Origin: Falsiroseomonas bella
GTDB taxonomy: Bacteria; Pseudomonadota; Alphaproteobacteria; Acetobacterales; Acetobacteraceae
Reading direction: 5' to 3'
Assembly (NCBI RefSeq): GCF_003173615.1
Contig: NZ_QGNA01000003.1
Location: 62,001-126,000, forward strand
DNA: 64,000 bases
Below, in pieces: positions 9,001 through 53,353 of the stretch. The notes below the pieces were generated by a model, which was not told where the DNA came from, searched no databases, and saw only the letters and a list, made by a program, of their open reading frames with translations. Each line of letters opens with the position of its first letter. The stretch's first letter is position 1. The translations under genes and the position numbers were made by a program.

Positions 9001-10910
9001 TCGCGGCCAGCGACGGCACCGTCCAGGTGCTGGCCGAGGCGACGCTGGTGATCCAGCCTGTGAACGATGCGCCTGTGATCCTCTCGCCCGCCACCGCGCA
9101 GGTCGAAGCCGTGGAGAACACCACGGCCGTGGTTGTCGTGGCGGCGCGTGACGTGGAGCTGGACGCGATCGCCTATCGCATCGTCGGTGGCGACGATGCG
9201 GGGCTTTTCGTCATCGACGAGTCGAGCGGCGCGCTGGCCTTCCTCAGAAGCCCGGACTTCGAAGCCCCAGCCGACAAGGAATCGGACAACAACTACCAGG
9301 TGATCGTCGCCGCTTCGGATGGCGACCTCGAGACTTCGATGACGATCACGGTCGCTGTCCTTGACGGGAAGGACACGCAGACAGGGACGGGGCGGGCGGA
9401 CACGCTGCTTGGAACCGATGGCGCCGACCTCCTGATCGGCCGCGGTGGCGACGATGTCCTCGAGGGCGGTGACGGCGCGGATGAGCTGCGCGGCGTCCAG
9501 GGCGGCGACACCCTCGTCGGCGGGGCTGGCAATGACCTGCTCCGCGGCGGTGCAGGCGACGACCTTGCCCTCGGTGGCGAGGGCGATGATCGCCTTGATG
9601 GCGGCACCGGCGCCGACAGCCTGGAGGGCGGCGCCGGCAACGACACCTATTTCATCGACGATGCCGGCGATGTCGTGGTCGAACACGCCGCTGAAGGCAT
9701 CGACACCGCCGCCACCAGCATCAGCTACATGCTGGGTGGCGAGGTCGAGAGGCTGGTGCTGATCGGCACGGGCGCGGTCGACGGCACCGGCAACGCGCTG
9801 GACAACGTCCTGACCGGCAATGTCGCCGCCAACCTGCTCGCAGGTGAGGCGGGCAACGACACGATGTCCGGCGGCGCAGGCAGTGACACGCTGGTGGGAG
9901 GCGGCGGCGGCGACCGGATGGTCGGGGGCGCCGGCGCCGACAGTCTGCTGGGCGGTGCCGACGATGATGTCTACATCGTCGATGATCTCGGCGACGCCGT
10001 GGTCGAGCACGCGGCGGACGGCACCGACACCGTCAGGGCTAGCGTGAGCCATGTGCTGGGCCTCGAGGTCGAGAGGCTCACTCTGCTCGGCAGCGCCGCG
10101 ATTGATGGCACCGGCAACACGCTGGGCAACATTCTGGCAGGCAATGCGGCCGGCAACCTGCTTGCCGGGGAGGAGGGGAACGACACGCTTGCGGGTGGCG
10201 CCGGGAACGACACCCTCCGCGGTGGTGCAGGCAACGACTGGCTGGTGGGCGGCCCCGGTGCGGATAGCATGGCGGGCGGCGAGGGCGACGACACCTACCT
10301 GGTCGATGACGCCGGCGACCTCGTGGTCGAGCAGCCCGCGGAGGGCATGGACAGCGTCGCCGCCGGCATCAGCTACGTGCTTGACGCCGAGATCGAGGGG
10401 CTGCGGCTGACCGGCACCGCGGCGATCGACGGCACCGGCAATGCGCTGGACAATACCCTCGCCGGCAACGCTGCGGACAACCGTCTCGCCGGGGAGGATG
10501 GGAGCGACAGCCTCTCGGGTGGCGCAGGCGATGACACCTTGCTGGGTGGCGAAGGGCGCGACTGGCTGAGCGGCGGCAGGGGGTTCGATATCTTCCGGTA
10601 CGGCCTCGCCGCCGAGGGTGGCGACACCATCGCCGGCTACAGGCGGTGGGAAGACACGATCGAGGTGTCCGCCGCGGGCTTCGGCGGAGGGCTGGCTGCG
10701 GGCATGGATCTGGTCGAGGCGGGTCGCTACGTCGCGAACGCAACCGGGCTCGCCACATCGGGCCACGGTATCGGGCAGTTCGTGTTCGAGACCGATGCCA
10801 GGCTGCTCTGGTGGGACGCGGATGGCAGCGACGGTGCTTCGGCGGAGCTCATCGCCGACCTCACCGGCGCCACCGGCTGGACAGGCCGCGAGATCGTCGT
10901 CATCGCGTGA
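1..10910 (+). CDS. Giant RTX / tandem-95 (cadherin-like) surface adhesin, 5' truncated
   Basis: The reading frame is open from the first codon of the window (base 3), so the true start lies upstream; about 3,635 residues are visible. It opens in RTX nonapeptides (GGGGDD, GDGDDRI). About nineteen bacterial cadherin/tandem-95 modules follow, each with a 'NDxDxDGDxL ... FTPxxxFxG ... FxYxVxD ... PVNDAP' pattern. A second RTX block lies at about 2930-4390 and a third at 9385-10640. A 'PGWLxYDxxTRTLxGTPP' putative-Ig module is near 8900, and a cadherin-like module is at about 9070-9370. The tail (LLWWDADGSD, then REIVVIA) resembles the ends of type I-secreted RTX proteins. Expected role: Ca2+-stiffened secreted or surface adhesion/biofilm protein exported by a type I system. 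No HlyB-type exporter is in the window. Function is inferred from architecture only; the family assignment is firm. Confidence 0.93.
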   Translation, partial: PGDDLIVGGGGDDLFRYARGDGDDRIDARGTGHSVIALADYTVADVASAVRGGPNSLDLVVTFAEGGDRLLLVGALGGPGSAQDSLIIHFADGTSWDRSAMRARAIEDIEGLGDDNIYGFDGADLVDLSGGNDFASGFAGADRFVFSAGDGHDRIEDSGLGAHEVDIVEFVGLDAADATVSRLFRGSDTVVIRFAGNEADSLTVVDALAGDARSIETYLFAGGTAWTRETILALLDNSPAIARDDGYYSVVTGSALTVLASDVLRNDFDADDDSLRIVAVDGSPNGTAVLDTSGNIVFTPGEGFTGATAFTYRITDDRNAFAEASVYVNVRPIAEARDDDGFLVAEDDFTSIRVERLLSNDIDGDRMIVGQVFGAVGGTVSLSSDGDIGFTPDADYVGPARFSYAANTPEGGRAEATVHLTVTPVNDVPIARNDRGLVTDENVAITVNPGILIANDDDVDGDRLTLHEVQSSAQILVSINAAGNIVVAPRGEFFGEGSFTYAVIDEAGAVSAFATATVVVRPVNDAPVANDDRFELTEAGDPIMEDNPIVLSLSRLVANDIDIDGDDLVLTDARLAVGGAVRLLDNQTVLFEPTANFNGVASFQYRVDDGQGGSDTAVASIIYQPVNDRPNARNDHYGDEDFYFLRGVEDVPIEIPIAELLKNDSDVEGFAVTFENATGAVHGDIAIVDDRIIFTPDQDFSGEATFGYSITDPEGLVDGALVTLFFAGNENEAPIAVADQFLVPEDIPVTLRLSTLLGNDTDADGDELRVIGWRSLNGLGDVFKFGGAAAGPVNGTIELDANGDLLFSPNIDATFSSGFVYIISDGADGTAEGFIDLVIVPSNDDPTVVDDPGFVTPFDIPLVIRVADLVFNDFDIEQADTDGDGVRDADLDDPDRPRPTFVSVDAILDPAELAQGHRVEVGSFEIVAFRGEEFLVARFLPGFTGPVTIEYRIADDEGLEDVGFAYATVADYYGDELSGTPLVDYIEGNQRDETIRGYRRDDWVVARDGDDLIETGTGDDRIEAGNGDDTIDAGDGGDDIRGGDGFDLVRFAGSNVGVRADLQTLVGQGGFAQGDVYAGVEGLEGTLFSDSLGGDDAGNSLAGLGGNDELEGRGGGDTLAGGSGNDLLDGGAGADLLDGGDGSDTASFFSSDDAVQISLAARSAAGGWAEGDILSNVENLVGSAFDDLLEGDGHANTLSGERGDDTLIGGTGDDVLSGGRGADQLIGGDGTDIADYTLSSDGIAIDIAAGTAGGGDAEGDTLSGIDIVQASYHADTLLGDDGDNRLRGSRGADILDGRGGADAADYARAEEAVKVDLALGRGLAGEALGDALTSIEMLIGSAFEDTLIGSAADEAFEGGFGADLLQGGFGSDDYRFGFDSAEDRIAETGDAADIDRLVLGAGIAAKDVSLLRIGDDLFVEIERDDGFLIDTVTVAHHFLGEESGIEFIAFADGTSWSRADIEDRLRIGRFNALDDIFRLGVEDEVALIDPAELIRNDAEAGTDELVLVSVQQPRSGTVWIAEDGRIAFQGSQDHYGDAFFSYTVRDPLGRESTARVEVNLAPVNDAPVAVDDPLVYGLEDVPLRIRLENLLANDYDVDGDREQEGLRIISAAPLTNAAGAPLRPYKNEDYEGEATDATWRFDGQYIELLSRPDHFGFAGFRYTLADASGATSTADVEIYFAPVNDAPRITSGRAVVKLEETTTFTVDQLMAKVYDVEGDAFEFVGLHLAADGNASDNGVEAFDAATGTIAFTPFALGDASIAFDVIDARGAEATLSFGIRVRPQNLPPDARDDYGLRMLQDETIVIDPAGLILNDTDPDGDPLSFVDVYRFAVNGKVRVNADGMIEFAAKPDYNGAASFEYTVSDGRGGTDTAVVHLTILPRNSGPVLRNDVVRGLEDGPQYVIPAEAFGNDLDVDGDVIFFENTELLGVVTTRFLSSDYMVEAKAGNNRALPDWLSFDAETLTFGGAVPEEVTTPVDVAVFLHDPSNGAVHPFRFAFGPDDAAELAAGLSVADVVLGGFTLRQPYVWTLDDDGDGVATFDISQGSFAAARVGGRPLPEWLGFDAATRSFFLTGFEPDADADPVRIQVTFTPDRAADLPEHVYRATQRGFTVEFLIDPSAPLDPAINAILANDALLDAQGLFGIDLSGASSLVATRESGAPLDSWLGFDPESLSFTGMPPSSYVGAVPVRIAVAGDGLPAMWIITEAVVDQTFVVDDEADGFAVADLPERIDLTTPVDFNGSVAFIYDAADEKGGRSAEPAIIVFNVAPQRELPRGVADRFELFENGSTSFRIATLVDNDRDDDGDPMRVLAIAPPSHGVLEIELSSVVIGPPEGFEPVPGGAWGATLADGSALPGWMVLDEVTGAITATVPLDVLADFAIRFTSRYGVTTREQVRHLSLDGNDGAGATYTPEAGFAGTETLLYTLTDNREGPVQVGLELEVLSLLDPPLAVTDTVEMREDGVLVIDPATLIANDSDVDGDPIRFLGVLQPVNGSVSFEGGQITFVPTPDFDGLAGFRYEVTDDRHGVSQGLVDVIVRSTNRRPNAATDVFATVEDEPFEFTIADLLANDSDLDGDAIRFVSIQSSIADARILELPDNRYQFVPDENINGPREFRYVITDGRLSTSGTIRFDIAAVNDAPIANPDGLFFGEQDTPLVIDFADMLFNDRDVEGDAFRIVEVFDGDNGTVARDGNTAVFLGRPGYFGDGGFHYRVTDDLGATSTGYVSVLVFPEFEVPVAVSDAGFEVLEDGFIDIDPAALMANDDIPVGSDVRFLGLTGAGVTLLDNGRYRVAPAADFFGTLTLRYALTNETGFAVPTTVTVEVLPVSDAPTAVDDALTIRENEVLTTFVTVLTGNDFDVDRQAGTLTRILGSQNVAVELSGDGQIILTPARHFSGEAWFDYELKDSGGIADVARVNVSVEALNDAPVITVPQVLTGSEDEPVSITLPAGFVTDPDGDAVLVEFRSPGGAPLPGWLSYDRATRTLAGTPPADFSGSLLLEIAASDGTVQVLAEATLVIQPVNDAPVILSPATAQVEAVENTTAVVVVAARDVELDAIAYRIVGGDDAGLFVIDESSGALAFLRSPDFEAPADKESDNNYQVIVAASDGDLETSMTITVAVLDGKDTQTGTGRADTLLGTDGADLLIGRGGDDVLEGGDGADELRGVQGGDTLVGGAGNDLLRGGAGDDLALGGEGDDRLDGGTGADSLEGGAGNDTYFIDDAGDVVVEHAAEGIDTAATSISYMLGGEVERLVLIGTGAVDGTGNALDNVLTGNVAANLLAGEAGNDTMSGGAGSDTLVGGGGGDRMVGGAGADSLLGGADDDVYIVDDLGDAVVEHAADGTDTVRASVSHVLGLEVERLTLLGSAAIDGTGNTLGNILAGNAAGNLLAGEEGNDTLAGGAGNDTLRGGAGNDWLVGGPGADSMAGGEGDDTYLVDDAGDLVVEQPAEGMDSVAAGISYVLDAEIEGLRLTGTAAIDGTGNALDNTLAGNAADNRLAGEDGSDSLSGGAGDDTLLGGEGRDWLSGGRGFDIFRYGLAAEGGDTIAGYRRWEDTIEVSAAGFGGGLAAGMDLVEAGRYVANATGLATSGHGIGQFVFETDARLLWWDADGSDGASAELIADLTGATGWTGREIVVIA
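9630..10575 (+). repeat. Three in-frame 324-bp repeats in the RTX adhesin C-terminus
   Basis: Corresponding codons (the Tyr of DTYF, DVYI and DTYL) fall at 9648, 9972 and 10296, an exact 324-bp (108-residue) spacing. Each unit reads: aspartate-rich beta strand with VDDAGD, a VVEHAAEG turn, SYxLGxEVExLxLxGT, then IDGTGNxLxNxLxGNA and several GGxGND nonapeptides. The third copy is cut short by the C-terminal tail. The units are clearly homologous but not identical at the DNA level, so the duplication is not very recent. Confidence 0.85.
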
Positions 10911-41981: not shown

Positions 41982-42857
41982 CTACGCGGCGGGCTCGCAC
42001 CGAAAGCCCTCGCCCCACCGGCGCACGTAGCCGGTGGAGGGCGAGGGGAAATGCACGAAGCAGCAGAGCGTGTCGGTGTCGCAGACACGCTCCAGGAAGT
42101 TCCGGCGCGTTGTCACCGCCTGCTCCGGGTCGTTGTCCAGCATCATGCGCAGATGCGGGTAGCGCGCCTGCAGCGGCGAATGGATCAGGTCGCCGGTGAT
42201 CACTCCCGCGGCGCGCCCGCGCCCAAGCTCCACGGCGAAATGATCGATGGTGTGCCCGGGCGTCGGCAGCAGGCGCAGATGGTCGTCCAGCGCGTGGTCG
42301 CTGGCGACGGGCTGCGCCCGACCGGCGGCGACGATGGGCAGCACGCTGTCCACGATCCAGGGGATTTCCGCCTCCGCGTTGCGCTCCGTCCAGAAGGCGA
42401 GCTCCTTCTCGGAGAACAGGTAGCGCGCATTCGGGAAGGTCGGCACCCAGCGTCCGTTCTCCAGCCGCGTATTCCAGCCGACATGATCGATGTGCAGATG
42501 CGTGCACATCACCACGTCGATGTCCTCCACGCGGAGCCCTGCCGCCGCCAGCGCATCCATGAAGGCGGTGTCGCGCTTGCGGTGCCATTGCGGATGCAGC
42601 GGCCGCTCCTTGTCATTGCCCAGGCAGCTGTCCACCAGCACGGTGTGATGCGGCGTGCGCACCACATGGGACTGCATGCAGAGCTTGACCCGGTCCTTCT
42701 CGTCGAGCGCATCGGGGCGCAGCCAGTCCCGGTTCTCCGCCAGCAGCTCCGGCGTCAGGTTGGGGAAGAAAGCGAGGATGTCGCGCAGGCCGGCGGCGGG
42801 CTCGGATTCGACGAGGCGATGGATGGTGACGTCGCCAAGGCGGAAGGTTGTGCGCAC
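41982..42857 (-). CDS. Metallo-beta-lactamase-fold hydrolase
   Basis: A 291-residue MBL-fold enzyme with the zinc motif THLHIDHVGW near residue 114 and further ligands in PTPGHTIDHF and TGDLIHS. There is no signal peptide. The GTG start is used because it follows the upstream stop by two bases; a longer reading frame runs through the end of the upstream gene and is rejected. It is the last gene of a minus-strand run with a DHDPS-family protein, an epimerase and a FAD monooxygenase. It resembles the MBL protein at 19198-20058 around the zinc site and in the VPTFPNARY segment. Confidence 0.84.
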   Translation of the reverse strand: MRTTFRLGDVTIHRLVESEPAAGLRDILAFFPNLTPELLAENRDWLRPDALDEKDRVKLCMQSHVVRTPHHTVLVDSCLGNDKERPLHPQWHRKRDTAFMDALAAAGLRVEDIDVVMCTHLHIDHVGWNTRLENGRWVPTFPNARYLFSEKELAFWTERNAEAEIPWIVDSVLPIVAAGRAQPVASDHALDDHLRLLPTPGHTIDHFAVELGRGRAAGVITGDLIHSPLQARYPHLRMMLDNDPEQAVTTRRNFLERVCDTDTLCCFVHFPSPSTGYVRRWGEGFRCEPAA

Positions 42858-42859
42858 GC

Positions 42860-43906
42860 TCAGGCCAGCCAGCGCGCCAGATTGTCGCGCACGAAGGCGT
42901 CGTCGGTCAGGTGCGGATAGCGCGCGGCGACCGCGCTCAGCAGTTCCGCCTGGCCGGGCGACAGGGTTTCGTGCGGATCGAGGCACCAGATGCCGTCCAG
43001 CAGGCCCTGGCGGCGCAGGATCTCGTGGCAGCCGGCGATGACGCCGTGGAAAGCATGCGCGACGTCGAAGACCGCCGCGTTCATCTCCGTCACCTGCGCA
43101 TCCAGCGCGAGCAGGTCGGCCGGGATCGGTCCCGCGCCGACCGCCTGGCAGCGCCGGTGCAGTTCCACCGCCGCGCGCGTCCAGACCGACCAGTGGCCGA
43201 GCAGCCCGCCGACGATGCGCAAGGGCTTGTCGCCGCCAAGGTCGAAGGGCGTCAGCAGGTCGGCGACGATGTGGTCGTCATTGCCGGTGTAGAGCGCGAT
43301 GCGATCCGCGGCGCAGGCATCCTGCACGCCGCGCAGCACGTCCAGCGTGGCGTAGCGGTTGAAGGGCGCGATCTTGATGGCGACGGCGTTCGGGATGCCG
43401 GCGAAGCGCCGCCAGAAGCTGGCGGGCAGCGGCAGCCCGCCGACCGCGGGCTGCAGGTAGAAGCCGAAGAGCGGCATCTCCGCCGCCACAGCCGCGCAAT
43501 GCGCGACCAACTCGTCCTCCGACGCGCCCTTCCAGGCAGCCAGCGACAGCAGCACGGCGTGGTAGCCAAGGCCGCGCGCGATCCGCGCCTCCCGCACCGC
43601 CTGCTCCGTGCGGCCGACCACGCCGGCGACGAGGATCGGCGTCGTCGCCTGCTCGGACGCCGCCTCCGCCGCGATCGTCAGCACCGGCTCGTAGAGGCCC
43701 ACATCGCGGATGGCGAATTGCGTCGTGTGCACGCCCACCGCAAGCCCGCCGCTGCCCGCATCCAGGTAGTAGCGCGACAGCGCCTTCTGGCGCCGCGGAT
43801 CCAGCTTGCGCTCCGCAGTCAGCGCCAGCGGATGCGCCGGGATCACGCAGCCGGCGCGCAGCCGTTCGGCGATGCCGGTGGGCCAATCCTCCCAGCGAAG
43901 CGGCAT
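42860..43906 (-). CDS. DHDPS-family TIM-barrel protein
   Basis: A 348-residue protein related to dihydrodipicolinate synthase-type aldolases. IPAHPLALTAERKLDPRRQKALSRYY begins the barrel, GSGGLAVGVHTTQF occupies the substrate-loop position, GFYLQPAVGG carries the catalytic-type Tyr, and AVAIKIAPFNRY holds the candidate Schiff-base Lys. It is longer than classical DapA (about 290) at the C-terminus. The ATG at 43906 has a GGGAGGTT site; it follows the epimerase stop by two bases, so it is co-transcribed. The substrate is unknown. Confidence 0.78.
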   Translation of the reverse strand: MPLRWEDWPTGIAERLRAGCVIPAHPLALTAERKLDPRRQKALSRYYLDAGSGGLAVGVHTTQFAIRDVGLYEPVLTIAAEAASEQATTPILVAGVVGRTEQAVREARIARGLGYHAVLLSLAAWKGASEDELVAHCAAVAAEMPLFGFYLQPAVGGLPLPASFWRRFAGIPNAVAIKIAPFNRYATLDVLRGVQDACAADRIALYTGNDDHIVADLLTPFDLGGDKPLRIVGGLLGHWSVWTRAAVELHRRCQAVGAGPIPADLLALDAQVTEMNAAVFDVAHAFHGVIAGCHEILRRQGLLDGIWCLDPHETLSPGQAELLSAVAARYPHLTDDAFVRDNLARWLA

Positions 43907-43908
43907 GG

Positions 43909-44931
43909 TCAGAACCTCCCGTCGCGCACTTCGAACTTCGTCGGCTTGCCGAGCGCCCGGCCGCCGCGCGAGACCCAGTCGGCCACCCATTGCACCAGCC
44001 GGTCCAGCGGCACGCGTGGATAGCCGAACAGCGCGAAGGCCCAGGCGGCGTTGGACAACAGCGCCTCCGGCGCCTCCGTGCCTGCAAACACCGGATCGCG
44101 CCCCATCAGCGCGCCGAAGCGCGAGGCGAGCCAGCGGATGGAGACCGTCTCCGGCCCCGTCACGTTCATGATCGGGCAGGCCGCATCGGCGTGGCGCAGC
44201 GCGCGCAGCGTCCAGGCATTGGCGTCGCCCTGCCAGATCACGTTCGCGTGGCCCATCGCCAGCGGCACCGGCGTGCCGTTCAGCACCTTGGTCGCGACGT
44301 CGTGCAGCACGCCGTAGCGCAGGTCGATCGCGTAGTTCAGGCGGATCCCGAAGCAGCGCGTGCCGCGCGCCGCGCCGGCATGCTGGAACACCCGCTCCCG
44401 CCCCAGGCAGCTTGCGGCATACTCGCCGACCGGCGCGGGCGTCGTGCTCTCATCCGGCATCGGGCCGTTCACCGGCACCAGCGGCAGCACGTTGCCGGTG
44501 GAGAAAAAGACGATGCGCGACGCTGCGTAGCGTTCCGCCACCATGCCCGGCAGCAACACGTTCATCGCCCAGGTCAGCGCCTCGTTGCCGGTCGAGCCGA
44601 ATTTCCGGGCGGCCATGAAGATCACGTTCGGCGCGTCCGGCAGCGCGGCCAGCGCGGCGCGGTCGGTCAGGTCGGCGCTCAGGCACTCGATACCCCAGGA
44701 TTCCATCCGCTCCCGCAGGCCGGGCTCGGACCAGCGCGCGACGGCGATGACGCGGCGCGCGGGATCGGCGCGTTTCGCCAGGCGACAGAGCGTCGGGCCC
44801 ATCTTGCCCGCGGCGCCCAGCACCAGCAGGTCGCCCGGCACGGCGGCGAGGTCTTCCCGCAGCGCCGCGTCCGGGCGCGTCATGACGTCCTCGAGTTCCG
44901 CCTCGTCCGCGATGGCCGCCGGCCAGGTCAT
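43909..44931 (-). CDS. NAD-dependent epimerase/dehydratase-family protein
   Basis: A 340-residue extended-SDR protein. A 40-residue N-terminal extension precedes the Rossmann motif LVLGAAGKMGPTLCRLA, an atypical GxxGxxG arrangement. ADLTDRAAL, NVIFMAARKFG and VFFSTGNVLP complete the core. YAASCLGRER supplies a Tyr but not the canonical YxxxK lysine in an obvious place, so catalysis may differ. It is encoded between a FAD monooxygenase and a DHDPS-family protein. The ATG at 44931 has a GAGGA site. Confidence 0.78.
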   Translation of the reverse strand: MTWPAAIADEAELEDVMTRPDAALREDLAAVPGDLLVLGAAGKMGPTLCRLAKRADPARRVIAVARWSEPGLRERMESWGIECLSADLTDRAALAALPDAPNVIFMAARKFGSTGNEALTWAMNVLLPGMVAERYAASRIVFFSTGNVLPLVPVNGPMPDESTTPAPVGEYAASCLGRERVFQHAGAARGTRCFGIRLNYAIDLRYGVLHDVATKVLNGTPVPLAMGHANVIWQGDANAWTLRALRHADAACPIMNVTGPETVSIRWLASRFGALMGRDPVFAGTEAPEALLSNAAWAFALFGYPRVPLDRLVQWVADWVSRGGRALGKPTKFEVRDGRF

Positions 44932-45002
44932 GCCGTCCTCCCGTCTTGCGAGTGGCGGCAGCATGGCCCCGTCCGGGCGGCGAAGGCCAGCCCCCGGCCG
45001 GC

Positions 45003-46154
45003 TCAGGCGATGTCGGTGTAGGTCCGTCGCAGCTTCGCAAGGAAGGCGGGCGACGCCTTGGCGCGTGCGCCCGCGACCGCGTCGGTGCCGGAAACAAGCG
45101 TGTCCGACGCTTCCAGCGAGAAATCGCGCACGAAGGCGACGCGCGGGTCGCGCCGCGCGGCAATCTCACGCACGCTTCCGCCGCGCCGCAGCACCGTCCC
45201 AGCCACGACGCCGCATTCCACTGCCTGCGTCGCACCCTGGCCGAGGGTCGGCACCATCGCCTGCGCCGCATCTCCGAGGAACAGCGCGCGCCCGGTCGGA
45301 TCGTGGCGCAGCAGCGGCACGGTGGCGGACCGCGCCCAGTGGATCTCCGGCAGATGCGCCGTGACCTTGTCGAGCATCCAGGCGACAGCGGGGCAGGGCG
45401 GCGCATCCTGCGGCGTGAACAGCGCGCGCTGCGCTGCCTCGGTCTTCATCGCCTCGGTCACCTGCGCATCAGGGCCGAGCGGGAAGGTGCCGGCGATGTA
45501 GACGGCGCCGCCCGGCACGCGAAAGGACAACAGCCGCGCATTGCCCCGAAACCACTGGCCGTAATCGTCATAGGGACACTCGGCGGCCTCGGTGACCAAC
45601 AGCCGCCAGATGCACACGCCGAGCAGCGTGCCCTCCGGCTCGCCGCAGGTGAGCGCGCGCAGGCGGCTGTAGCGGCCATCGGCGCCGACCAGCAGGTCGA
45701 AGCCGCCGTCGCGCACCAGGCCCGAAGCGGTGCGGAACACCGGCACCAGCCGGCCCGCCGCATCCTCCTCCAGCGCTTCCAGCGTGTGCCCGCTGCGCGT
45801 GCAGCCTGCCACCGGCGCGCGCAGCAGGCGGTAGAGTTCCGACCAGCGGATGCGCATGCCGGGCTCCTCGGCCAGGTCCAGCAGGTCGAGGTCGAGCAGG
45901 CGCGTGCCGTCCGTCAGGTCCACGAACCAGCGCCGCCAGGGCAGGGAGGCCTCGCGCAGCGCCGCATGCCTGACCGGCCTGTGCAGGCGCAGCGCCTTCA
46001 GCGCGTTCGGCCCGACATTCAGCCCCGTGCCGGCCTCGGCATGCTCGCCGCGCGCGACCCGTTCATAGGCCGTGACGGACATGCCGGGCGCGTCCAGCAG
46101 CGCCTCCGCCAGAAGGCTGCCGGCGACGCCGGTGCCGATGATGCCGATCCTCAT
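45003..46154 (-). CDS. FAD-dependent monooxygenase (UbiH/HpxO-like group A)
   Basis: A 383-residue flavoprotein hydroxylase. GIIGTGVAGSLLAEAL is the N-terminal Rossmann fold, DLLVGADGRYSRLR is the GD-like motif, and LGDAAQAMVPTLGQGATQAVE is the FAD-ribityl motif. There is no membrane segment. It would hydroxylate an aromatic or heterocyclic ring using NAD(P)H and O2. It is divergent from the ring-opening amidohydrolase gene with only 21 bases between start codons. It may therefore be part of the same N-heterocycle pathway, as inference. An alternative start at 46163 adds three residues. Confidence 0.84.
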   Translation of the reverse strand: MRIGIIGTGVAGSLLAEALLDAPGMSVTAYERVARGEHAEAGTGLNVGPNALKALRLHRPVRHAALREASLPWRRWFVDLTDGTRLLDLDLLDLAEEPGMRIRWSELYRLLRAPVAGCTRSGHTLEALEEDAAGRLVPVFRTASGLVRDGGFDLLVGADGRYSRLRALTCGEPEGTLLGVCIWRLLVTEAAECPYDDYGQWFRGNARLLSFRVPGGAVYIAGTFPLGPDAQVTEAMKTEAAQRALFTPQDAPPCPAVAWMLDKVTAHLPEIHWARSATVPLLRHDPTGRALFLGDAAQAMVPTLGQGATQAVECGVVAGTVLRRGGSVREIAARRDPRVAFVRDFSLEASDTLVSGTDAVAGARAKASPAFLAKLRRTYTDIA

Positions 46155-46175
46155 GCGGCGCATTATGCTAGCGCC

Positions 46176-47213
46176 ATGCCGCGCCTCGCCATCCATCGCC
46201 TTTCCATGGCCCATCCGGGCGATCTTTCGGCGCTGGAAGCGCTGATCGCGCGCGGCGAGGTCCGCGCGGGCGAGATCCGCGCGGTGATCGGCAAGACCGA
46301 GGGCAATGGCGGGCTCAACGACTTCACCCGCGGCTTCTTCACCCAGACGCTGATGCTGTTGCTGGCGTCGCAGACCGGTGAGACGCCGGCGGCGCTGGCG
46401 GCGCGCATCCCCTGCGTGCTGTCGGGCGGGACGGAGGGCGCGCTCAGCCCGCACTACATGGTCTTCAGCGTTTCCGACGAAGCCGCGGCGGGACGCGGCC
46501 TCGCGCTGGGCACTGCCTTCTCGCCAGTGACGCCCGCGCGCGAGATCGGCCGCGTCGCGCAGATCGAGGCGGTAGTCGCCGCCGTGCGCGCTGCCATGGC
46601 CGATGCCGGGATCGCGCGCGCCGAGGACGTGGCGCTGGTGCAGGTGAAGGCGCCCGCACCGCAGGCGCCCGATCCCGACGCGCGCAGCACGGACGCAAAA
46701 CTCCTGATGGCGCTGTCGCGCGCCGCGGCGGCGGTCGGCGCCGGCGTGGCGCTCGGCGACATCCCGGCCGACCACGCGACGGAGGCCGCGCTGCTGACGG
46801 ACCTCTCACTTTACTCTAACCGCGTCTCGATCTCCTCCGGCGTCGAGGTGACCTGCAACGAGGTGGTGGTGTTCGGCCATGCCGATGGCTGGGCGGAGGG
46901 CATCGTCGCCGGCGTCGCGCCCATGGCGGACCTGCTGGACCTCGCCGGCGTGCAGGCCGCCTTCGCCGCGGCGCCGGGCGAGGTGCTCGGCGTGATCGCG
47001 AAAGGCGAGCCCGACAAGACTGGAGCGATACGCGGGCATCGCCACACCATGCTCGGCGACACGGACATCGACGCCCAGCGCCACCTTCGCGGCGCGTTGG
47101 GCGCGATCGTCGCGGCGGTGGCCGGCGACGGTCGCGTCTTCGTCAGCGGCGGCGCGGAACACCAGGGCCCGCCGGGCGGCGGGCTGGTCTGCGTCTTCGC
47201 GCGTTCAGCCTGA
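46176..47213 (+). CDS. Ring-opening amidohydrolase, cyanuric acid amidohydrolase/barbiturase family
   Basis: A 345-residue protein. The family is built from three concatenated homologous domains with three Ser-Lys pairs, and all are visible: K40 (VIGKTEGNG), S83 (LSGGTEGALSPH), K158 (VQVKAP), S220/S221 (SISSGVEVTCNEV), K276 (VIAKGEPDK) and S324 (VSGGAEHQGPPGGG). These enzymes open cyanuric acid to carboxybiuret or barbiturate to ureidomalonate; sequence inspection does not separate the two. Neighbours (Mo-hydroxylase, deoxyribosyltransferase, allophanate-hydrolase-type amidase) favour an N-heterocycle pathway. It is convergent with the Mo-hydroxylase large subunit, and the two coding regions overlap by nine bases. 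Confidence 0.9.
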   Translation: MPRLAIHRLSMAHPGDLSALEALIARGEVRAGEIRAVIGKTEGNGGLNDFTRGFFTQTLMLLLASQTGETPAALAARIPCVLSGGTEGALSPHYMVFSVSDEAAAGRGLALGTAFSPVTPAREIGRVAQIEAVVAAVRAAMADAGIARAEDVALVQVKAPAPQAPDPDARSTDAKLLMALSRAAAAVGAGVALGDIPADHATEAALLTDLSLYSNRVSISSGVEVTCNEVVVFGHADGWAEGIVAGVAPMADLLDLAGVQAAFAAAPGEVLGVIAKGEPDKTGAIRGHRHTMLGDTDIDAQRHLRGALGAIVAAVAGDGRVFVSGGAEHQGPPGGGLVCVFARSA

Positions 47214-49544
47214 CGGGTTGCAGATCTCCCACAGCCGCGACGGCGAAAGCGGGATCTCGGAAACTTCGATGCCGCGCGCCGGCAGGTCCAGCGCATCCTC
47301 GATCGCCTGGGCGAAGAGCGCACCCACCGGAATCGCGCCGCCTTCTCCCGCGCCCTTGGTGCCGAGCGGATTGAGCGGGGAGGGCGTCTCGGTGTGCAGC
47401 ACGTCCATCCGCGGCACGTCAAGGGCGGTGGGCAGCAGGTAGTCGGCGAGCGAGGCGTTCAGCAGCTGGCCGTCATCCGTCCAGACCAGCTCCTCGAAGA
47501 AGGCGTTGCCGATGCCCTGCGCGACGCCGCCCTGGATCTGGCCGGAGAGGATCAGCGGGTTCAGCACCGTGCCGCAATCATGCACGACGACATAGCGCAG
47601 GATCGTCGGCCGCATCGTCTGCGCGTCGATCTCGATGACCATGGCATGCGCCCCGGCCGCGGTCGCGCCCATCTGCGGCCCGAAATAGGAGGTCGCCTCC
47701 AGTCCAGGGACTGTCCCGGGCTTTACCGCCCCGCGCATCGGGTTTGCCAGCCGCGCCAGCTCGCCGAGCGTGATCCTGTTCTCCGGCACGCCGGCGATCG
47801 AGACCGCGCCGTCCGCCAGCACCAAATCGGCCTCGGCGCATTCGAAATGCTCGGCCGCCGTCTTGAGGATTTTTGTGCGCACCTCCACCGCGGCGCCATG
47901 CGCGGCGCTTCCGGTGACCACCGCGCCGCGGCTGGCGAAGGTGCCGGCGCCCCAGTCGAACACGTCGGTGTCGCCGGTGGTCACCTCCACGTCGCGCACA
48001 TCCACGCCCAGTTGTTCCGCGACCACCTGCGCAAAGGAGGTGAAGTGCCCCTGGCCCTGCGTGCCGACCCCAGTGGCGAGTGTCACCTTGCCGCTCGCCT
48101 GCACGCGTACCTTGGCGCCCTCATAGGGGCCTATGCCCGTACCCTCGACATAGCAGACGACACCGAGGCCGAGATGCCGGCCTTCCGCACGCGCCTTCGC
48201 CTTCTCCGCCGCGAATTCCGCGTAGCCGATGGCGTGCAGCGCCTTGTCGAGGATCGGCGCGTAGTTGCCGCTGTCATAGGTCAGCGGTGCGAAATCCTGG
48301 TAGATGAGCTCGTTGTGGTAGGGGAAGGCGTCCGCGGGGATGAGGTTGCGCCGCCGGATCTCCGCGCGGTCGAGGCCCAGTTCGCGCGCCGCAGCATCCA
48401 GCATGCGCTCCATCACGAAGATGCCGTGCTGCCGTCCTGCGCCGCGATAGGGCGTGACCAGCGTGCGGTTCGTGTAGATCGCGCGGAATCGGCTGTCATA
48501 AGCTGGCACGTCGTAGCAGTTCAGCAGCGTGCACTGGCTGTTGAGCGGCACCGTCAGCCCATAGGGATTGTAGGCGCCGGTATCCATCAGGAAGTCGTCG
48601 CGCACGCCGAGGATTTTTCCGCGTGCATCCAGCGCCAGCTCGCAATCATGGACCTGGCTGCGCTCCTGCGTCGTGGCCGTGAAATGCTCGAGCCGATCCT
48701 CGATCCATTTCACCGGCCGGTCGAGGCGCAGCGCCATCCAGGGCACCAGCACTTCCTCGGGGTAGAACATCATCATCTTCGGCCCGAAGCCGCCGCCAAT
48801 GAAGGGCGCGACCACGCGCACCTGGCGCTCCGACAGGCCGAGCATCGCGGCCAGCCCGTTGCGGATGAAGACCGGCGCCTGGGTTGTGTCCCAGACCGTC
48901 AGCTTCTCCGCCTTGTGGTCCCATTGCGCGACGATGCCCCGCGTTTCCATCGGGTTCGACGCGCCGCGGTCATACGTGAAGCGGCGGCGGATGAGGTGCG
49001 CGGCCTTCGCGCGCGCCGCGGCATAGTCGCCCTTGGCCTGGTGGACATCGGCGGCGATGTTGTCCGGCAGGTCGGCATGCACGCGTGGGCTGTCCGACGA
49101 CAGGGCCGCTTCTAGCCCGATCACCGGCGGCAGGGGCTCGTACTCGACCACGATGTCGCCGACCGCATCCTCCGCGACGTAGCGGCTTTCGGCGACGACC
49201 ATCACCACCGGCTCGCCCACATGCCGCACCTCGCCCTTGGCGAGCGGCACCTGGCAGCGCTGGCGGAAGACCATGCCCTTGATGGGCGGCGGCGGCACCA
49301 ACAGAGGCCCGGGCTGCCAGTACTCGCCGAGGTCCTCCGCGGTGATCACCGCGACCACGCCGGCGCGCGCCTTCGCGGCGTCCGTGTCGATGGAGCGGAT
49401 CGCCGCGCGCGCATGCGGGCTGCGCAGGAAGGCGGCGTGCAGCATCCCCGGCAGTTCCACATCGTCCACGAACAATGCCCGGCCGGTCAGCAGCCGCGGG
49501 TCCTCGTTGCGCGTCAGCGGCCGGCCGATCTGGCGCGTTTCCAT
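47205..49544 (-). CDS. Molybdenum hydroxylase large (catalytic) subunit, CoxL/XdhB type
   Basis: A 779-residue molybdopterin protein. GRPLTRNEDPRLLTGRALFVDDV is the N-terminal domain. FIGGGFGPKMMMFYPEE is a Mo-pterin contact. TPYRGAGRQHG near residue 365 is the PYRGAGR form rather than the AYXCSFR loop of true CO dehydrogenase. QGQGHFTSFAQVVAEQLG contacts the cofactor, and E734 in KGAGEGG is the catalytic glutamate. It therefore hydroxylates a carbon next to nitrogen in an N-heterocycle or an aldehyde, not CO. ATG overlaps the small-subunit stop (TGATG). It is the last gene of an M-S-L operon. Confidence 0.9.
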   Translation of the reverse strand: METRQIGRPLTRNEDPRLLTGRALFVDDVELPGMLHAAFLRSPHARAAIRSIDTDAAKARAGVVAVITAEDLGEYWQPGPLLVPPPPIKGMVFRQRCQVPLAKGEVRHVGEPVVMVVAESRYVAEDAVGDIVVEYEPLPPVIGLEAALSSDSPRVHADLPDNIAADVHQAKGDYAAARAKAAHLIRRRFTYDRGASNPMETRGIVAQWDHKAEKLTVWDTTQAPVFIRNGLAAMLGLSERQVRVVAPFIGGGFGPKMMMFYPEEVLVPWMALRLDRPVKWIEDRLEHFTATTQERSQVHDCELALDARGKILGVRDDFLMDTGAYNPYGLTVPLNSQCTLLNCYDVPAYDSRFRAIYTNRTLVTPYRGAGRQHGIFVMERMLDAAARELGLDRAEIRRRNLIPADAFPYHNELIYQDFAPLTYDSGNYAPILDKALHAIGYAEFAAEKAKARAEGRHLGLGVVCYVEGTGIGPYEGAKVRVQASGKVTLATGVGTQGQGHFTSFAQVVAEQLGVDVRDVEVTTGDTDVFDWGAGTFASRGAVVTGSAAHGAAVEVRTKILKTAAEHFECAEADLVLADGAVSIAGVPENRITLGELARLANPMRGAVKPGTVPGLEATSYFGPQMGATAAGAHAMVIEIDAQTMRPTILRYVVVHDCGTVLNPLILSGQIQGGVAQGIGNAFFEELVWTDDGQLLNASLADYLLPTALDVPRMDVLHTETPSPLNPLGTKGAGEGGAIPVGALFAQAIEDALDLPARGIEVSEIPLSPSRLWEICNPSG

Positions 49545-50020
49545 CACGCCGTTTCCCGCAGGCGCTTTGCCGCCAGCAGCACCGCGTCCACGATGTGCTG
49601 GTAGCCCGTGCAGCGGCAGAGGTTGCCCGAAAGCGCGTGACGCACCGCCTCCTCGCCGGGGTCCGGGTTCTCCTCCAGGAAGGCGGTCATCGTCATAAGA
49701 ATTCCCGGCGTGCAGTAGCCGCATTGCAGCCCATGCGCGTCCCGGAAGGCCTGCTGCAGCACGGAGAGCGCATCGGGCGTGCCGAGGCTTTCCACCGTCC
49801 GCACCTCATGGCCTTCCGCCTGCACCGCGAAGATCAGGCAGGACCGCACCGGCGCGCCGTCCAGCCGTATCGTGCAGGCGCCACAGACGCCGTGCTCGCA
49901 GCCGACATGCGTGCCGGTCAGCCCGGCCTCATGCCGGATGAAGTCCGAGAGAAGCAGCCGCGGCTCCACTTCCCGCGTGACGGCATCGCCGTTGATGGAG
50001 AGCGTGACGCGTCGCCTCAT
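49544..50020 (-). CDS. Molybdenum hydroxylase small (2x[2Fe-2S]) subunit
   Basis: A 158-residue iron-sulfur protein. The plant-ferredoxin-type cluster uses C41, C46, C49 and C61 (VGCEHGVCGACT, RSC). The second cluster uses C100, C103, C135 and C137 (LQCGYCTPG, NLCRCTGY). All eight cysteines are present, so electron transfer from the Mo site to FAD should be intact. It overlaps the medium subunit by ATGA and the large subunit by TGATG. Confidence 0.93.
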   Translation of the reverse strand: MRRRVTLSINGDAVTREVEPRLLLSDFIRHEAGLTGTHVGCEHGVCGACTIRLDGAPVRSCLIFAVQAEGHEVRTVESLGTPDALSVLQQAFRDAHGLQCGYCTPGILMTMTAFLEENPDPGEEAVRHALSGNLCRCTGYQHIVDAVLLAAKRLRETA

Positions 50021-50886
50021 GCCGCGCGCTCCCACGCCGTCGCCAGCGCACGCGCAGCGATGACGCCCGCCAGGTGGCGCTGATAGGCGGGGCTGGCCTG
50101 CACGCTGCCGGTCGGCGCGATCTCCTGCTTCAACAGCGCAGCCGCTTGCGCCAGGTCCGCATCGGTCAGCTTCGTCCCGACCAGGGACGCCGCGGCTTTC
50201 GGCGCCGCCATCGGCGTCGGCCCGGCGCTGCAGCAGGCGAGGCGCACCGCGGTGCAAATGCCGGCTGCATCCCGCGTCACCACCGCCGCCACGCCCATCA
50301 TCGCGTATTCGCCGCGCCGCCGCGCGATCTCGAGCCAGGCGGTGCCGCTGCGCGGCGGCAGGGGAGGCAGGCGGATCTCGGCCAGCATCTCGTCCAGTTC
50401 CAATGCGGTGGTCAGCGGACCCAGGAAGAACTCCGCCGCCGCAACCTGCCGTTCGCCGCGCGCGCTGCGGATCAGGAAGCGCGCCGCCAGCGCCAACATC
50501 ACCGCCGGCATCTCGGAAGCCGGGTCGGCATGGCTGAGGTTGCCGCCCAGCGTGCCGCGGTTGCGCACCTGCGGATGCGCCACCTCATGCAGCGCCTCGG
50601 CCAGGATCGGATGGCTCTTCACCGCACCGGCATGCCGCTCGATGGCGGCGTTGCGCGCCATCGCGCCGATGGTGAGCGACCCGTCCGCGCCCACAGCGAT
50701 CGCGTCCAGCCCCGCCACGCGGTTGAGGTCCACCAGCACCGCCGGCTGGGCGATGCGAAAGTTCATCGCCGGCACCAGGCTCTGCCCGCCCGCCAGGAAG
50801 CGCGCATCCTCTCCGTGCCGGGCCTTCAGCGCCAGCGCCTCCGCCACGCTTTCCGGGGCGTGCCAGTCGAAGGGGGCGGGCTTCAC
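50017..50886 (-). CDS. Molybdenum hydroxylase medium (FAD) subunit
   Basis: A 289-residue FAD-binding protein. AGGQSLVPAMN (residues 32-42) and TLGGNLSHADPASE (about 110-123) are the two FAD pyrophosphate-binding motifs, and the C-terminal CO_deh_flav domain follows. It starts with GTG, behind a GAGGAG site. It is the promoter-proximal gene of the M-S-L operon, and its upstream region (101 bases) is shared with the divergent deoxyribosyltransferase gene. Confidence 0.91.
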   Translation of the reverse strand: MKPAPFDWHAPESVAEALALKARHGEDARFLAGGQSLVPAMNFRIAQPAVLVDLNRVAGLDAIAVGADGSLTIGAMARNAAIERHAGAVKSHPILAEALHEVAHPQVRNRGTLGGNLSHADPASEMPAVMLALAARFLIRSARGERQVAAAEFFLGPLTTALELDEMLAEIRLPPLPPRSGTAWLEIARRRGEYAMMGVAAVVTRDAAGICTAVRLACCSAGPTPMAAPKAAASLVGTKLTDADLAQAAALLKQEIAPTGSVQASPAYQRHLAGVIAARALATAWERAA

Positions 50887-50987
50887 GCGGAACTCCTCAT
50901 CGCGGCCAGATTGGCAGATGCCCTTCCGACCCCGAAGGGAAAACCGCGCCTTGCGCGTGCCGCCCTTGCGGTGGTGAAGATGCGGCC

Positions 50988-51545
50988 ATGCCCATCGCCT
51001 ATCTCGCCGGTCCCGATGTCTTCCTGCCGAACGCCCAGGCCCATGCCGCCCGCAAGGCGGCGATCTGCGCTGCGCATGGCATCACCGCCCTGCCGCCGCT
51101 GAACGAGGACATCGCCAGCCTCGCGGAGCTCGAGGCACATCACGCCTGGCGCGCCATCTACGCCAAGGACATCGAGATGATGGAGCGCGCGGACCTGGTG
51201 ATCGCCAACCTCACGCCCTTCCGCGGCGCCAGCGCCGATGCCGGCACGCTGATCGAGGTCGGCTGGTTCCTCGGCCGCGGCCGGCCGATCTTCGGATATT
51301 CCAACAGCGCGACGCCATTCGCCGAGCGCAGCGCGGCGCAGGTGGCGCGCGTGCCGGACCCGATCCCGGGCCTTTCGGTCGAGGGTTTCGGCCTGCCCGA
51401 CAACCTGATGATTCCGGGCGCGATCGAGAGCGGCGGTCATCCGATCCTGCTGCCGGAAGCCGGCCAGGACCTGCCCTTCGATAGCCTGCAGGTCTTCGAG
51501 CGCTGCGTCGCCATCGCCGCGCGCCGCCTCGGCCTGGTCACCTGA
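50988..51545 (+). CDS. Nucleoside 2-deoxyribosyltransferase
   Basis: A 185-residue protein. IAYLAGPDVFLPNA is the N-terminal nucleotide-binding start, IYAKDIEMMERADLVIANLTPFRGASADAGTLIEVGW carries the family acids including the catalytic Glu-type EVGW, and FGYSN follows. These enzymes move or release the base of 2'-deoxynucleosides, and some act as hydrolases on nucleotide-like sugars. It is divergent from the Mo-hydroxylase operon and convergent with the allophanate-hydrolase C-terminal gene (15 bases). It could supply free pyrimidine or purine base to the ring-oxidising enzymes; this is inference from position. Confidence 0.86.
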   Translation: MPIAYLAGPDVFLPNAQAHAARKAAICAAHGITALPPLNEDIASLAELEAHHAWRAIYAKDIEMMERADLVIANLTPFRGASADAGTLIEVGWFLGRGRPIFGYSNSATPFAERSAAQVARVPDPIPGLSVEGFGLPDNLMIPGAIESGGHPILLPEAGQDLPFDSLQVFERCVAIAARRLGLVT

Positions 51546-51560
51546 CTCCGGCGCCGCGGG

Positions 51561-51977
51561 TCATGCGCCGGCCCGCGAATCAAGAAAGGCGCGCCAGCCG
51601 CCGAAGCGGCTGATCTCCTCGGCGCCCGCCAGCCCCTCCGGCTCCACCAGGAAGCCTTTCGGCGTGCTGCCATCCGCCAGCAGCAGCGTGCCGATGCAGA
51701 GCGGCGCGGGAATGCCGGCCACAAAGCGACCGAAGCCGTCCGGCGGCAACGCCCAGACCTCAGCGGCGATGGCGTGCCCGGCGCTCGGTGCCACGCGCAG
51801 CAGGCCGGGCCGGCGTGGCGGGCCGCCGGCGAGGGCGAAGAAGCGGTAGCAGGGCTGCGTGGCCACCGCGCGCCGCAGCACGCCGCCGCGGCCGGTCAGC
51901 TCGTGGTTCAGCGCCAGCCCCGACAGATGCGCGCCGACGACGGCGATCTCGATGGCTTCGTCCATGCCGCCCGTCAT
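51561..51977 (-). CDS. Stand-alone allophanate hydrolase C-terminal domain (AtzF-C-like)
   Basis: A 138-residue protein matching the C-terminal domain normally fused to the amidase of allophanate hydrolase (gamma-glutamylcyclotransferase-like fold): IAVVGAHLSGLALNHELTGRG, then YRFFALAGG, EVWALPPDGFGRFV and IPAPLCIGTLLLADGSTPKGFLVEP. Its ATG at 51977 overlaps the amidase stop in an ATGA, so the two domains are encoded in different frames as coupled genes. A second ATG 12 bases on is possible. The domain is thought to take part in the second decarboxylation/hydrolysis step or in complex assembly. Confidence 0.83.
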   Translation of the reverse strand: MTGGMDEAIEIAVVGAHLSGLALNHELTGRGGVLRRAVATQPCYRFFALAGGPPRRPGLLRVAPSAGHAIAAEVWALPPDGFGRFVAGIPAPLCIGTLLLADGSTPKGFLVEPEGLAGAEEISRFGGWRAFLDSRAGA

Positions 51978-53311
51978 GCCTGGAAGCGCGCGCCCAGCGC
52001 GGCGAGGCTCGCATCGCTGCCGCGCGGGCCGATCAGCGTGATCCCCGCCGGCAGCCCATCCGGCCGCATCGGCCCCGGCACGGCCAGCGCCGCCAGGTCG
52101 AGCAGGTTCACGAAGTTGGTGTAGGCGCCGAGCCGCGCATTCGGCCCGAGCGGATCGGCCTCCAGCTCCGCCAGCGTCGGGAAGCACGGGACGGAGGGCA
52201 CGGCCAGCGCCTCCACGCGCTGCCAGACGGGCGCCGTGCGGCGCCGCATCTCCGCCAGCTCGTACAGGCCGCGGAAGGCGTCCACCGCCGAGAAGCGTGC
52301 GGCGCCGGCCAGGATGCCGCGCGTCACCGGGTGCACCGCGTCGGGCTCCGCGGCGCAGAAATCGCCGACGGCGGCGGCGCGCTCGGCGACCCAGGGGCCG
52401 TCATAGAGCAGCCGCGCCGTCGCATGGAAATCGCCGAGGTCCAGCGGTTCCAGAACCACGCCGAGCGCGGCCAGGCGCGCGCAGGCGGCATCCCAGGCGG
52501 CGCGCCCCGCCGCGTCGTCCAGCTCCGGCACCAGCGGCACGCCGATGCGGCGCGGCGGCGTGGCGGCGTCCATTTCCTGCCAGGCGATCGGGCGGCTGAA
52601 GGCGTCCTCGGGATCCTCGGCGGCGATGGCGGCGAAGCCGGCCCAGGCATCGGCGACGCTGCGCGCGAAGACCGAGATGCAGTCCAGGCTTCGGCAGGCC
52701 GGCACGACGCCGCGCGTGGAGACCACGCCGAGCGACGGCTTCAGCCCGACCAGCCCGTTCAGCGCCGCCGGCACGCGGCCCGATCCCGCCGTGTCGGTGC
52801 CGAGCGAAAGCGTGGCCAGCCCCTGCGCGACGGCGACGGCGGAGCCGCTGCTCGATCCGCCGGGCACGCGCGTGGGATCGAAGGCGTTGCGCGGCACGGG
52901 GTAGGGCGTGCGGACGCCCACCAGCCCGGTTGCGAACTGGTCGAGATTGGTCTTGCCGATCAGCACCGCGCCCGCATCGAGCAGGCGCTGCGCCGCGGGG
53001 GCGGTGTGGCGCGCCATTTAGGCGAAGCCGGGGCAGGCGACGGTGGTCGGCAAGCCGGCGATGTCGATGTTGTCCTTCACCGCGACTGGCAGGCCCCAGA
53101 GCGGGTATCGCGCGGGATCGAAGGCGGGCAGCACCTCCGCCGCGGCGCGCGCGCGGCCCTCCGGGATCAGGTGCAGGAAGATTCCGGGATCGTCGACCGC
53201 GGCGATCCGGCGATGGATCAGCGCGACGACGTCAGCGGGTCGCAACCGGCCGGCGGCATAGGCGCGGTGCAGGCTGGCGCGGTCGAGCGGCAGGTCGGCC
53301 TCAATGGTCAT
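51974..53311 (-). pseudogene. Allophanate hydrolase-type amidase, interrupted by an in-frame TAA
   Basis: Amidase-signature protein read in one frame: MTIEADLPLD start, LWGLPVAVKDNID with catalytic Lys79, VACPGFA to residue 97, then TAA (53020-53018), then ATG and the remainder. That remainder contains GKTNLDQFATGLVG, PGGSSSGSA (cis-Ser) and LGTDTAGSGRVPA (nucleophile Ser), the last being AtzF-specific. Relatives have Tyr where the TAA lies (AFAY), so one base change explains it. As TAA is followed directly by ATG, ribosomes might restart and give two fragments, with Lys79 on one and both serines on the other. The product would release ammonia from allophanate or ureidomalonate. A sequencing error must be excluded. 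Confidence 0.82.
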
Positions 53312-53353
53312 GCCGGCCATCCTGCAAGGCGCATGCCTTCACCGCGATTCTCT

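Follow-up and report, generated by a model that had tools for sequence, protein, structure and literature searches.

Within a 64,000-nucleotide stretch of the Falsiroseomonas bella genome (contig NZ_QGNA01000003.1, positions 62,001 to 126,000; hereafter the window), two neighbouring genes are best read as one functional core: a gene for a ring-opening cyclic-amide hydrolase of the AtzD/barbiturase family (46176..47213, plus strand) and a gene for a group A FAD monooxygenase (FMO; 45003..46154, minus strand; PF01494). The hydrolase belongs to a clade that is linked to this FMO and that, judged by published residues and a published motif, is neither typical cyanuric acid amidohydrolase (CAH) nor barbiturase. 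We see about an even chance that the FMO hydroxylates an oxo-N-heterocycle and that the hydrolase, a Ser-Lys enzyme of the Toblerone fold in a third specificity class, opens the ring of the product. The fuller proposal is more tentative and, in our estimate, falls somewhat short of even: a third Toblerone-fold specificity class (for neither cyanuric acid nor barbiturate) and a new FMO subfamily would together carry out an undescribed oxidative ring-opening of a natural N-heterocycle, e.g. an oxidised purine product or a pyrimidinetrione that carries a hydroxyl group at C5. This two-gene core differs from the gene set of the original prediction for this DNA, which joined the hydrolase to a molybdenum hydroxylase (Mo-hydroxylase), a nucleoside 2-deoxyribosyltransferase-fold protein (NDT) and an allophanate-hydrolase-type amidase. 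The source genome, in which the window is part of contig 8, has 5.94 Mb in 14 contigs and is rated 100% complete.

The linkage between the two genes was computed on a locus set made up of the best 80 of 146 confirmed hydrolase relatives from a scan of 84,980 species genomes; neighbours in these 80 loci (L numbers below) were scored by tblastn with the window proteins, and some loci are shorter than 21 kb. An FMO match was found in 23 of the 80 loci (L001–L020, L022, L030 and L027). L027, with an FMO match of only 32% lying ∼3 kb from a canonical-type enzyme, was left out of the clade counts. FMO and hydrolase genes occur together in all 22 remaining loci, adjacent in 17 and with an amidase gene between them in five (L011, L012, L016, L018 and L019), and this pairing spans four bacterial families with varied orientations and gene orders. 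Within the genus, the hydrolase adjoins the FMO in 14 out of 14 FMO-bearing genomes (nine of which are the same strains as L001–L009, as told by their identical FMO). Other companions are an NMT1-type ABC binding protein (15 of the 22 loci), a VOC protein (13), an amidase (12; best NCBI model PRK06169, one member tested), a Mo-hydroxylase of the window type (eight, with the NDT in the same eight) and an allophanate hydrolase (one, in Roseomonas sp. AR75). For example, the gene order in Hydrogenophaga, Polaromonas and Parazoarcus is LysR, hydrolase, amidase, FMO, VOC, ABC transporter. In six Roseomonas/Falsiroseomonas loci (L002 and L005–L009) a second ABC system lies between the core and the Mo-hydroxylase; it was classed as THI5-like by a family search on L005 only, and L002 and L006–L009 were assigned by similarity. 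The full gene list of the original prediction, taken as one unit, is found in a single locus out of 22 (that of AR75, a near relative), and relatives largely carry the amidase and the deoxyribosyltransferase separately, as that prediction had said would count against it. The FMO, which it had left outside the locus as a mere adjunct, is the most conserved partner.

The hydrolase passes PF09663 over its full length (E 1e-104; 350.8 bits against a cut-off of 25; profile positions 2–358 of 358), and all three Lys and three Ser of the Ser-Lys pairs are present, so the assignment to the CAH/barbiturase family stands. K40, K158, K276, S83, S218/S220, S324 and R52 (Arg54 of AtzD) are invariant in 21 aligned proteins, and the dyad columns are conserved in 89 out of 89 aligned rows. 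A search of the window genome gave no second PF09663 gene. The nearest named relatives, in the scan of species genomes, come from Roseomonas sp. AR75 and other Roseomonas/Falsiroseomonas. A maximum-likelihood tree was computed for 89 proteins: the 22 FMO-linked ones, two copies of the window gene and 65 others including AtzD. The 22 FMO-linked proteins and the two window-gene copies are split from the 65 others by a branch with 100/100 support; the tree program flags a possible meeting of long branches between L020/L022 and the 65 outside rows. A phylogenetic placement had been proposed as a check, and it puts the protein in a distinct FMO-linked clade of the family.

The signature of this clade is seen in the specificity residues. 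At AtzD positions 195, 321, 325, 345 and 346 the window protein has R, Q, R, G and G; CAHs have R, T, R, G and G, according to PMC3758960. The same paper (Peat 2013) gives N195, H321, K325, V345 and S/A346 for barbiturase, and none of these five is present in the window protein, which does not fit the suggested barbiturase identity. Both arginines of the two-Arg test (AtzD 194/195 and 324/325) are there, and the three carbonyl-binding arginines are kept in 19 of the 24 clade rows, window included. The Thr321 column, however, holds Gln in all 24 clade rows vs Thr in 63 of the 65 others (Glu in the remaining two). Five residues (F55, L82, V225, Q301 and L337 in window numbering) are the same throughout the 24 clade rows and found in none of the 65 others, and P79 is likewise fixed in the clade and found in at most one of the others. 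The motif SGGxExQGPxGGGP is described as CAH-diagnostic in PMC9118981; it is found in none of the 24 clade rows vs 62 of the 65 others, and the window protein reads SGGAEHQGPPGGGL in its place. The three misses outside the clade are two Glu-type proteins and L033, whose contig stops with the match. A motif variant with terminal Leu for Pro occurs in 19 of the 24 clade rows and in none of the others.

Other members of the hydrolase family turned up beside these. A second, Glu-type member shares the cluster in Celeribacter and Tropicimonas; in the FMO clusters of two Roseobacteraceae (L020 at 15048 and L022 at 15049) a member bearing Glu in place of Thr321 lacks the CAH motif, sits on a long branch and is possibly a fourth specificity type. 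On a Klebsiella plasmid (L084, one record), a family member of ∼40% identity lies beside genes for a nucleobase symporter, a DUF2877 protein, an FdrA-like protein and a DUF1116 protein. Family matches were found in 132 plasmid records (e.g. 18 from Citrobacter, 10 from Klebsiella and eight from Enterobacter). Genomes G873, G750 and G128 have three or four PF09663-matching places each, some of them fragments of a single match that is broken or split, others weaker, more distant members.

The best PDB matches of the FMO, both in a single-sequence search and in a fold search, are structures of HpxO, the FAD-dependent urate 5-hydroxylase (3rp6–3rp8); the fold search places many other hydroxylases only slightly lower. 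We rejected membership in HpxO itself (53 bits against the cut-off of 500 for NF033623, urate_HpxO); the single sequence and the profile both point to a group A aromatic hydroxylase. At E 1e-60 the FMO is seldom met beyond its own family: a draw from the class gave it in three genomes out of 385 (its own included) and a draw from the phylum in one out of 398 (its own), against 14 out of 15 genomes in the genus and 19 out of 200 in the family. As the phylum draw gave no further FMO, the wider context was taken from its own family and from the family of genome G203, where four of 18 genomes have the FMO. In the 200-genome family sample a PF09663 gene is present in 16 of the 19 FMO-bearing vs 21 of the 181 other genomes (Fisher p 5e-11), it lies beside the FMO in six of the 16, and 10 of the 13 FMO genomes without adjacency also carry one (Fisher p 6e-7), p values that ignore shared ancestry and genome size and assume that both 200-genome draws are identical.

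The computations show the family assignments, the clade, its signature and the linkage; from there we infer the order of steps and the reactions, and guess the compounds, as follows. In this genus the Mo-hydroxylase near the core probably supplies the substrate of the FMO and would make a trione; the FMO would turn the trione into a 5-hydroxytrione by hydroxylation at C5; the hydrolase would open this six-membered cyclic-imide product to a ureido acid; and an amidase would release ammonia and a C3 hydroxy acid. In many lineages the core would be completed by the amidase, the VOC-fold protein and an ABC importer whose binding protein is of the NMT1 type. Because the three dyads and the carbonyl-binding arginines are kept, the substrate most likely still carries a carbonyl at each of ring positions 2, 4 and 6, the arrangement of cyanurate and barbiturate, and Gln in place of Thr321, together with the other fixed changes, suggests an extra group on the ring. 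Flavin hydroperoxides attack electron-rich carbons, among them C5 of an oxopurine or a pyrimidinetrione; on this ground our guess, a distinctly unlikely one taken by itself, is that the substrate is a 5-hydroxylated pyrimidine-2,4,6-trione (dialurate type). The 2,3,6-trihydroxypyridine, citrazinate and riboflavin/lumichrome routes were also considered for the FMO substrate, and a literature search turned up no gene cluster of this composition. Carbonyl geometry argues against pyridine substrates for the FMO, and this, like the weighing of an isoorotate route, is a matter of reasoning only.

Several observations weigh against the oxidative ring-opening proposal. The hydrolase passes the NCBI equivalog NF052395 (cyanuric acid amidohydrolase), with 361.5 against a cut-off of 360, a margin of 1.5 bits. 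Its nearest structures are CAHs, not barbiturase, and its AlphaFold model (mean pLDDT 85.6; weak at 284–298, adjoining Gln301) has a TM score of 0.93 to CAH structures. The Arg195 column holds Val in five of the 24 clade rows. The FMO-linked label rests on linkage and precedes the tree, and further PF09663 members of the family sample lie outside the typed set. An FMO profile built from 23 aligned sequences ranks salicylate and 6-hydroxynicotinate hydroxylases above HpxO, and since it puts decarboxylating hydroxylases first, ring C5 hydroxylation is just one option. Beyond the genus the FMO is also found without the hydrolase: a CAH-family gene lies within 6.5 kb of the FMO in 42 of the 57 rows of the FMO tree and is missing nearby in 15 (the rows represent 48 different sequences, and the label for a CAH-family neighbour needs five changes on the tree). 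The partner amidase and the VOC protein have no close counterpart in the window genome, where their best matches reach 34% (full length) and 37%, respectively. Lastly, the 10 FMO genomes with a PF09663 gene elsewhere have an unlinked canonical-type CAH, 68–75% identical to the canonical copy of AR75, and the FMO could there be feeding ordinary cyanuric acid metabolism. The FMO is thus tied to CAH-family chemistry beyond the new clade, which is the main reason why cyanuric acid stays a live rival.

The alternative that survives best, fairly unlikely in our view, is that the 46176 enzyme is an ordinary CAH in a cyanuric-acid nitrogen-scavenging locus, its neighbours being unrelated. The equivalog match and the structures agree with it, as do the kept R195, R325, G345 and G346 and the allophanate hydrolase pieces nearby, but the CAH motif is missing throughout the clade, Gln replaces Thr321 in every clade row, and AR75 and two Falsiroseomonas-type genomes have a separate canonical CAH, near allophanate hydrolase in AR75 and in L021/L028. 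In addition, the allophanate hydrolase of the window is broken: its amidase (51974–53320, minus strand) has a TAA stop in frame at 53018–53020, which separates an N-terminal piece ending at that stop (53018..53320, minus strand; NF006043, 85 bits) from a C-terminal piece past it (51974..53017, minus strand; NF006043, 494 bits; PDB 4cp8), and its C-terminal domain is encoded by a separate open reading frame (ORF; 51561..51977, minus strand; PF21986, E 3e-45) that has an ATGA overlap with the amidase stop. Both amidase pieces and the C-terminal domain match allophanate hydrolase models (TIGR02713 and NF006043); the AtzF-type amidase claimed earlier is therefore right as a family assignment and wrong as one intact gene. 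The amidase copy of AR75 is uninterrupted, and the stop in the window may still be a sequencing error.

Comparison with AR75 bears on where these pieces belong. AR75 has a second CAH-family gene, with canonical signature and motif, between the NDT and the allophanate hydrolase (L001, from 15372, minus strand). By blastn, window 41982–51540 is collinear with L001 5812–15371 at 86.6%, and the match resumes at window 51549, corresponding to L001 16466; at this site (51541..51548) the window is without ∼1.1 kb of AR75 that includes nearly all of the canonical CAH gene. A canonical-type CAH a few kb from allophanate hydrolase is also found in L021, L028 and L232, so a loss in the window is likelier than a gain in AR75. 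With the partner CAH gone and the amidase interrupted, the allophanate hydrolase set is best read as decaying. We rejected it as a pathway member, because its amidase is broken, it occurs in only one FMO-linked locus and it belongs with the separate canonical CAH. The allophanate hydrolase is split in two ORFs (amidase and C-terminal domain) in the window (51561–53320), L001 (AR75), L021, L028 and L232; atzF of pADP-1 is one gene of 1818 bases.

It is quite improbable that the 46176 enzyme is the barbiturase of the oxidative pyrimidine route, in which the Mo-hydroxylase would turn uracil into barbiturate and an amidase would finish after ring opening. The Mo-hydroxylase and the deoxyribosyltransferase-like protein near the hydrolase in eight of the 22 loci are consistent with this route, as are the NMT1/THI5-type ABC genes between core and Mo-hydroxylase (L002 and L005–L009); against it stand the absence of all five barbiturase residues and the far lower score to barbiturase 5hwe (172.7 bits vs 252.9 bits for CAHs). 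It also gives the constant FMO no role (the barbiturate route is not known to contain one) and leaves 14 of the 22 loci without the window-type Mo-hydroxylase and NDT.

The three-subunit Mo-hydroxylase itself was called correctly. It has a CoxL-like large subunit (47205..49544; PF02738, PF20256 and PF01315), a 2Fe-2S subunit (49544..50020; PF01799 and PF00111) and an FAD subunit (50017..50886; PF00941 and PF03450), all on the minus strand. The large-subunit loop reads TPYRGAGR (TPYRGAGRQ), i.e. PYRGAGR and not the CO-dehydrogenase loop. Form I CO dehydrogenase has the active-site loop AYxCSFR; we rejected this assignment, as that loop is absent and the CODH_aero_grp5 score (908 bits) is below the cut-off of 950. 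The window-type enzyme lies near the core in eight of the nine loci of the window's subgroup (L001–L009 minus L003) and in no other FMO-linked locus. A different Mo-hydroxylase (29% to the window's large subunit) is found in the FMO clusters L022, L161 and L233, and a PucD-like Mo-hydroxylase adjoins the core in L022. The NDT (50988..51545, plus strand) also matches its predicted family (PF05014, E 1e-35; 122 bits against a cut-off of 28.8; PDB 6qai and 2a0k), its transferase or hydrolase activity being predicted only, and it accompanies the Mo-hydroxylase within the genus. Near its relatives in other genera of the family (54–74% identity), no Mo-hydroxylase gene was found within 1.5 kb in any of 16 loci (L105–L120), which cover that flank only, so that a more distant link is possible. 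The proposed deoxynucleoside salvage-to-catabolism route was rejected as a conserved unit on this count (0 of 16 outside the genus). The broader prediction of N-heterocycle catabolism keeps its ring-opening hydrolase and the Mo-hydroxylase nearby in eight of nine subgroup loci, but loses its amidase, NDT and barbiturase parts.

That the FMO and the hydrolase are mere neighbours, nitrogen-scavenging genes with different substrates, is highly doubtful: the FMO does stand without a nearby CAH-family gene in the 15 rows mentioned, several of them beside a lactonase-like hydrolase or NtaA-type monooxygenases, but every clade member of the locus set keeps the pair, over four families and with varied orientation and gene order. 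Very improbable, finally, is a scheme in which the FMO turns a natural precursor (e.g. an oxidised purine product such as oxonate) into cyanuric acid, to be opened by the linked clade enzyme or an unlinked canonical CAH. The unlinked co-occurrence (10 of 13), the resemblance of the FMO to HpxO and decarboxylating hydroxylases and the PucD-like enzyme of L022 fit it, but the linked enzyme differs from CAHs in its signature, the co-occurrence ignores genome size and phylogeny, and flavin hydroperoxides are ill suited to attacking an s-triazine carbon.

Other genes recur around the FMO. The window encodes a lactonase-like metallo-beta-lactamase-fold (MBL) hydrolase (41982..42986, minus strand; PF00753), homologues of which adjoin the FMO in L159, L160, L164 and L234, lie one gene off in L166, and are found near CAH2-like genes in L023, L228 and L231; the MBL hydrolase may replace the ring-opening enzyme where the latter is absent. 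NtaA/DmoA-type FMN monooxygenase-like genes were seen in FMO loci without a CAH-family gene (L157, L160, L161, L164, L166, L233 and L234; the L166 gene alone by family search). In G203 (L089/L171) one stretch holds the FMO, a Rieske-like gene (30% to an L168 gene matching VanA_C), ABC genes, a VOC gene, a Gln-type hydrolase and a motif-positive CAH, together with an apparent 2-oxoglutarate oxygenase, judged by eye. Between the MBL hydrolase and the FMO, on the FMO's strand, the window encodes a DHDPS/aldolase-like protein (42860..43990, minus strand; PF00701, E 5e-7) and an NAD-dependent epimerase/dehydratase-like protein (43909..44964, minus strand; PF01370), both also found in AR75. Elsewhere in the window, a single open frame of 3590 codons (138–10910) has coding-like GC by codon position.

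With its signature and its oxygenase partner both fixed, the clade offers a direct experimental handle on a natural substrate. The family was called minor in 2014, cyanuric acid then not being known as a natural product, and the CAH of A. caulinodans has a kcat/Km near 1e5 per M per s (both from PMC4051656). Cyanuric acid has since been reported in Paramecium secretions (2025; PMC12342508), and two family groups fitted neither known substrate in 2013 (PMC3758960). Our literature search found no paper on the hydrolase and FMO gene pair; key family papers lie outside that search, and an earlier description is possible there. Automatic annotation would be corrected by the reading proposed here, since the protein clears the NCBI cyanuric acid amidohydrolase cut-off by 1.5 bits.

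Among known systems, the hydrolase is most readily set beside AtzD/TrzD, with which it shares the fold, the three Ser-Lys dyads, Arg195, Arg325, Gly345 and Gly346 at ∼40% identity; it differs in having Gln for Thr321 and a C-terminal motif that ends in Leu, not Pro. The genomic contexts differ as well: AtzD of pADP-1 (atzDGEHF operon) is followed by AtzG, AtzE, an HpxZ-like gene and AtzF, whereas the partner of the window hydrolase is the FMO. AtzF is matched by the window amidase pieces and C-terminal domain through its models, but the window amidase is stop-interrupted and the C-terminal domain is on its own ORF. With the barbiturase of Rhodococcus the hydrolase shares the fold family and, in part of the clade, a Mo-hydroxylase next door, but none of the five specificity residues (Peat 2013, PMC3758960), and it scores lower to barbiturase than to CAHs. 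PDB entry 5hy0, with the same Toblerone fold, has the lowest identity of the family structures (∼31%); its title is 'orotic acid hydrolase', which suggests that the family has activities beyond CAH and barbiturase. For the FMO, HpxO is the nearest solved sequence and fold, yet at ∼23% identity and a TM score of 0.74–0.79.

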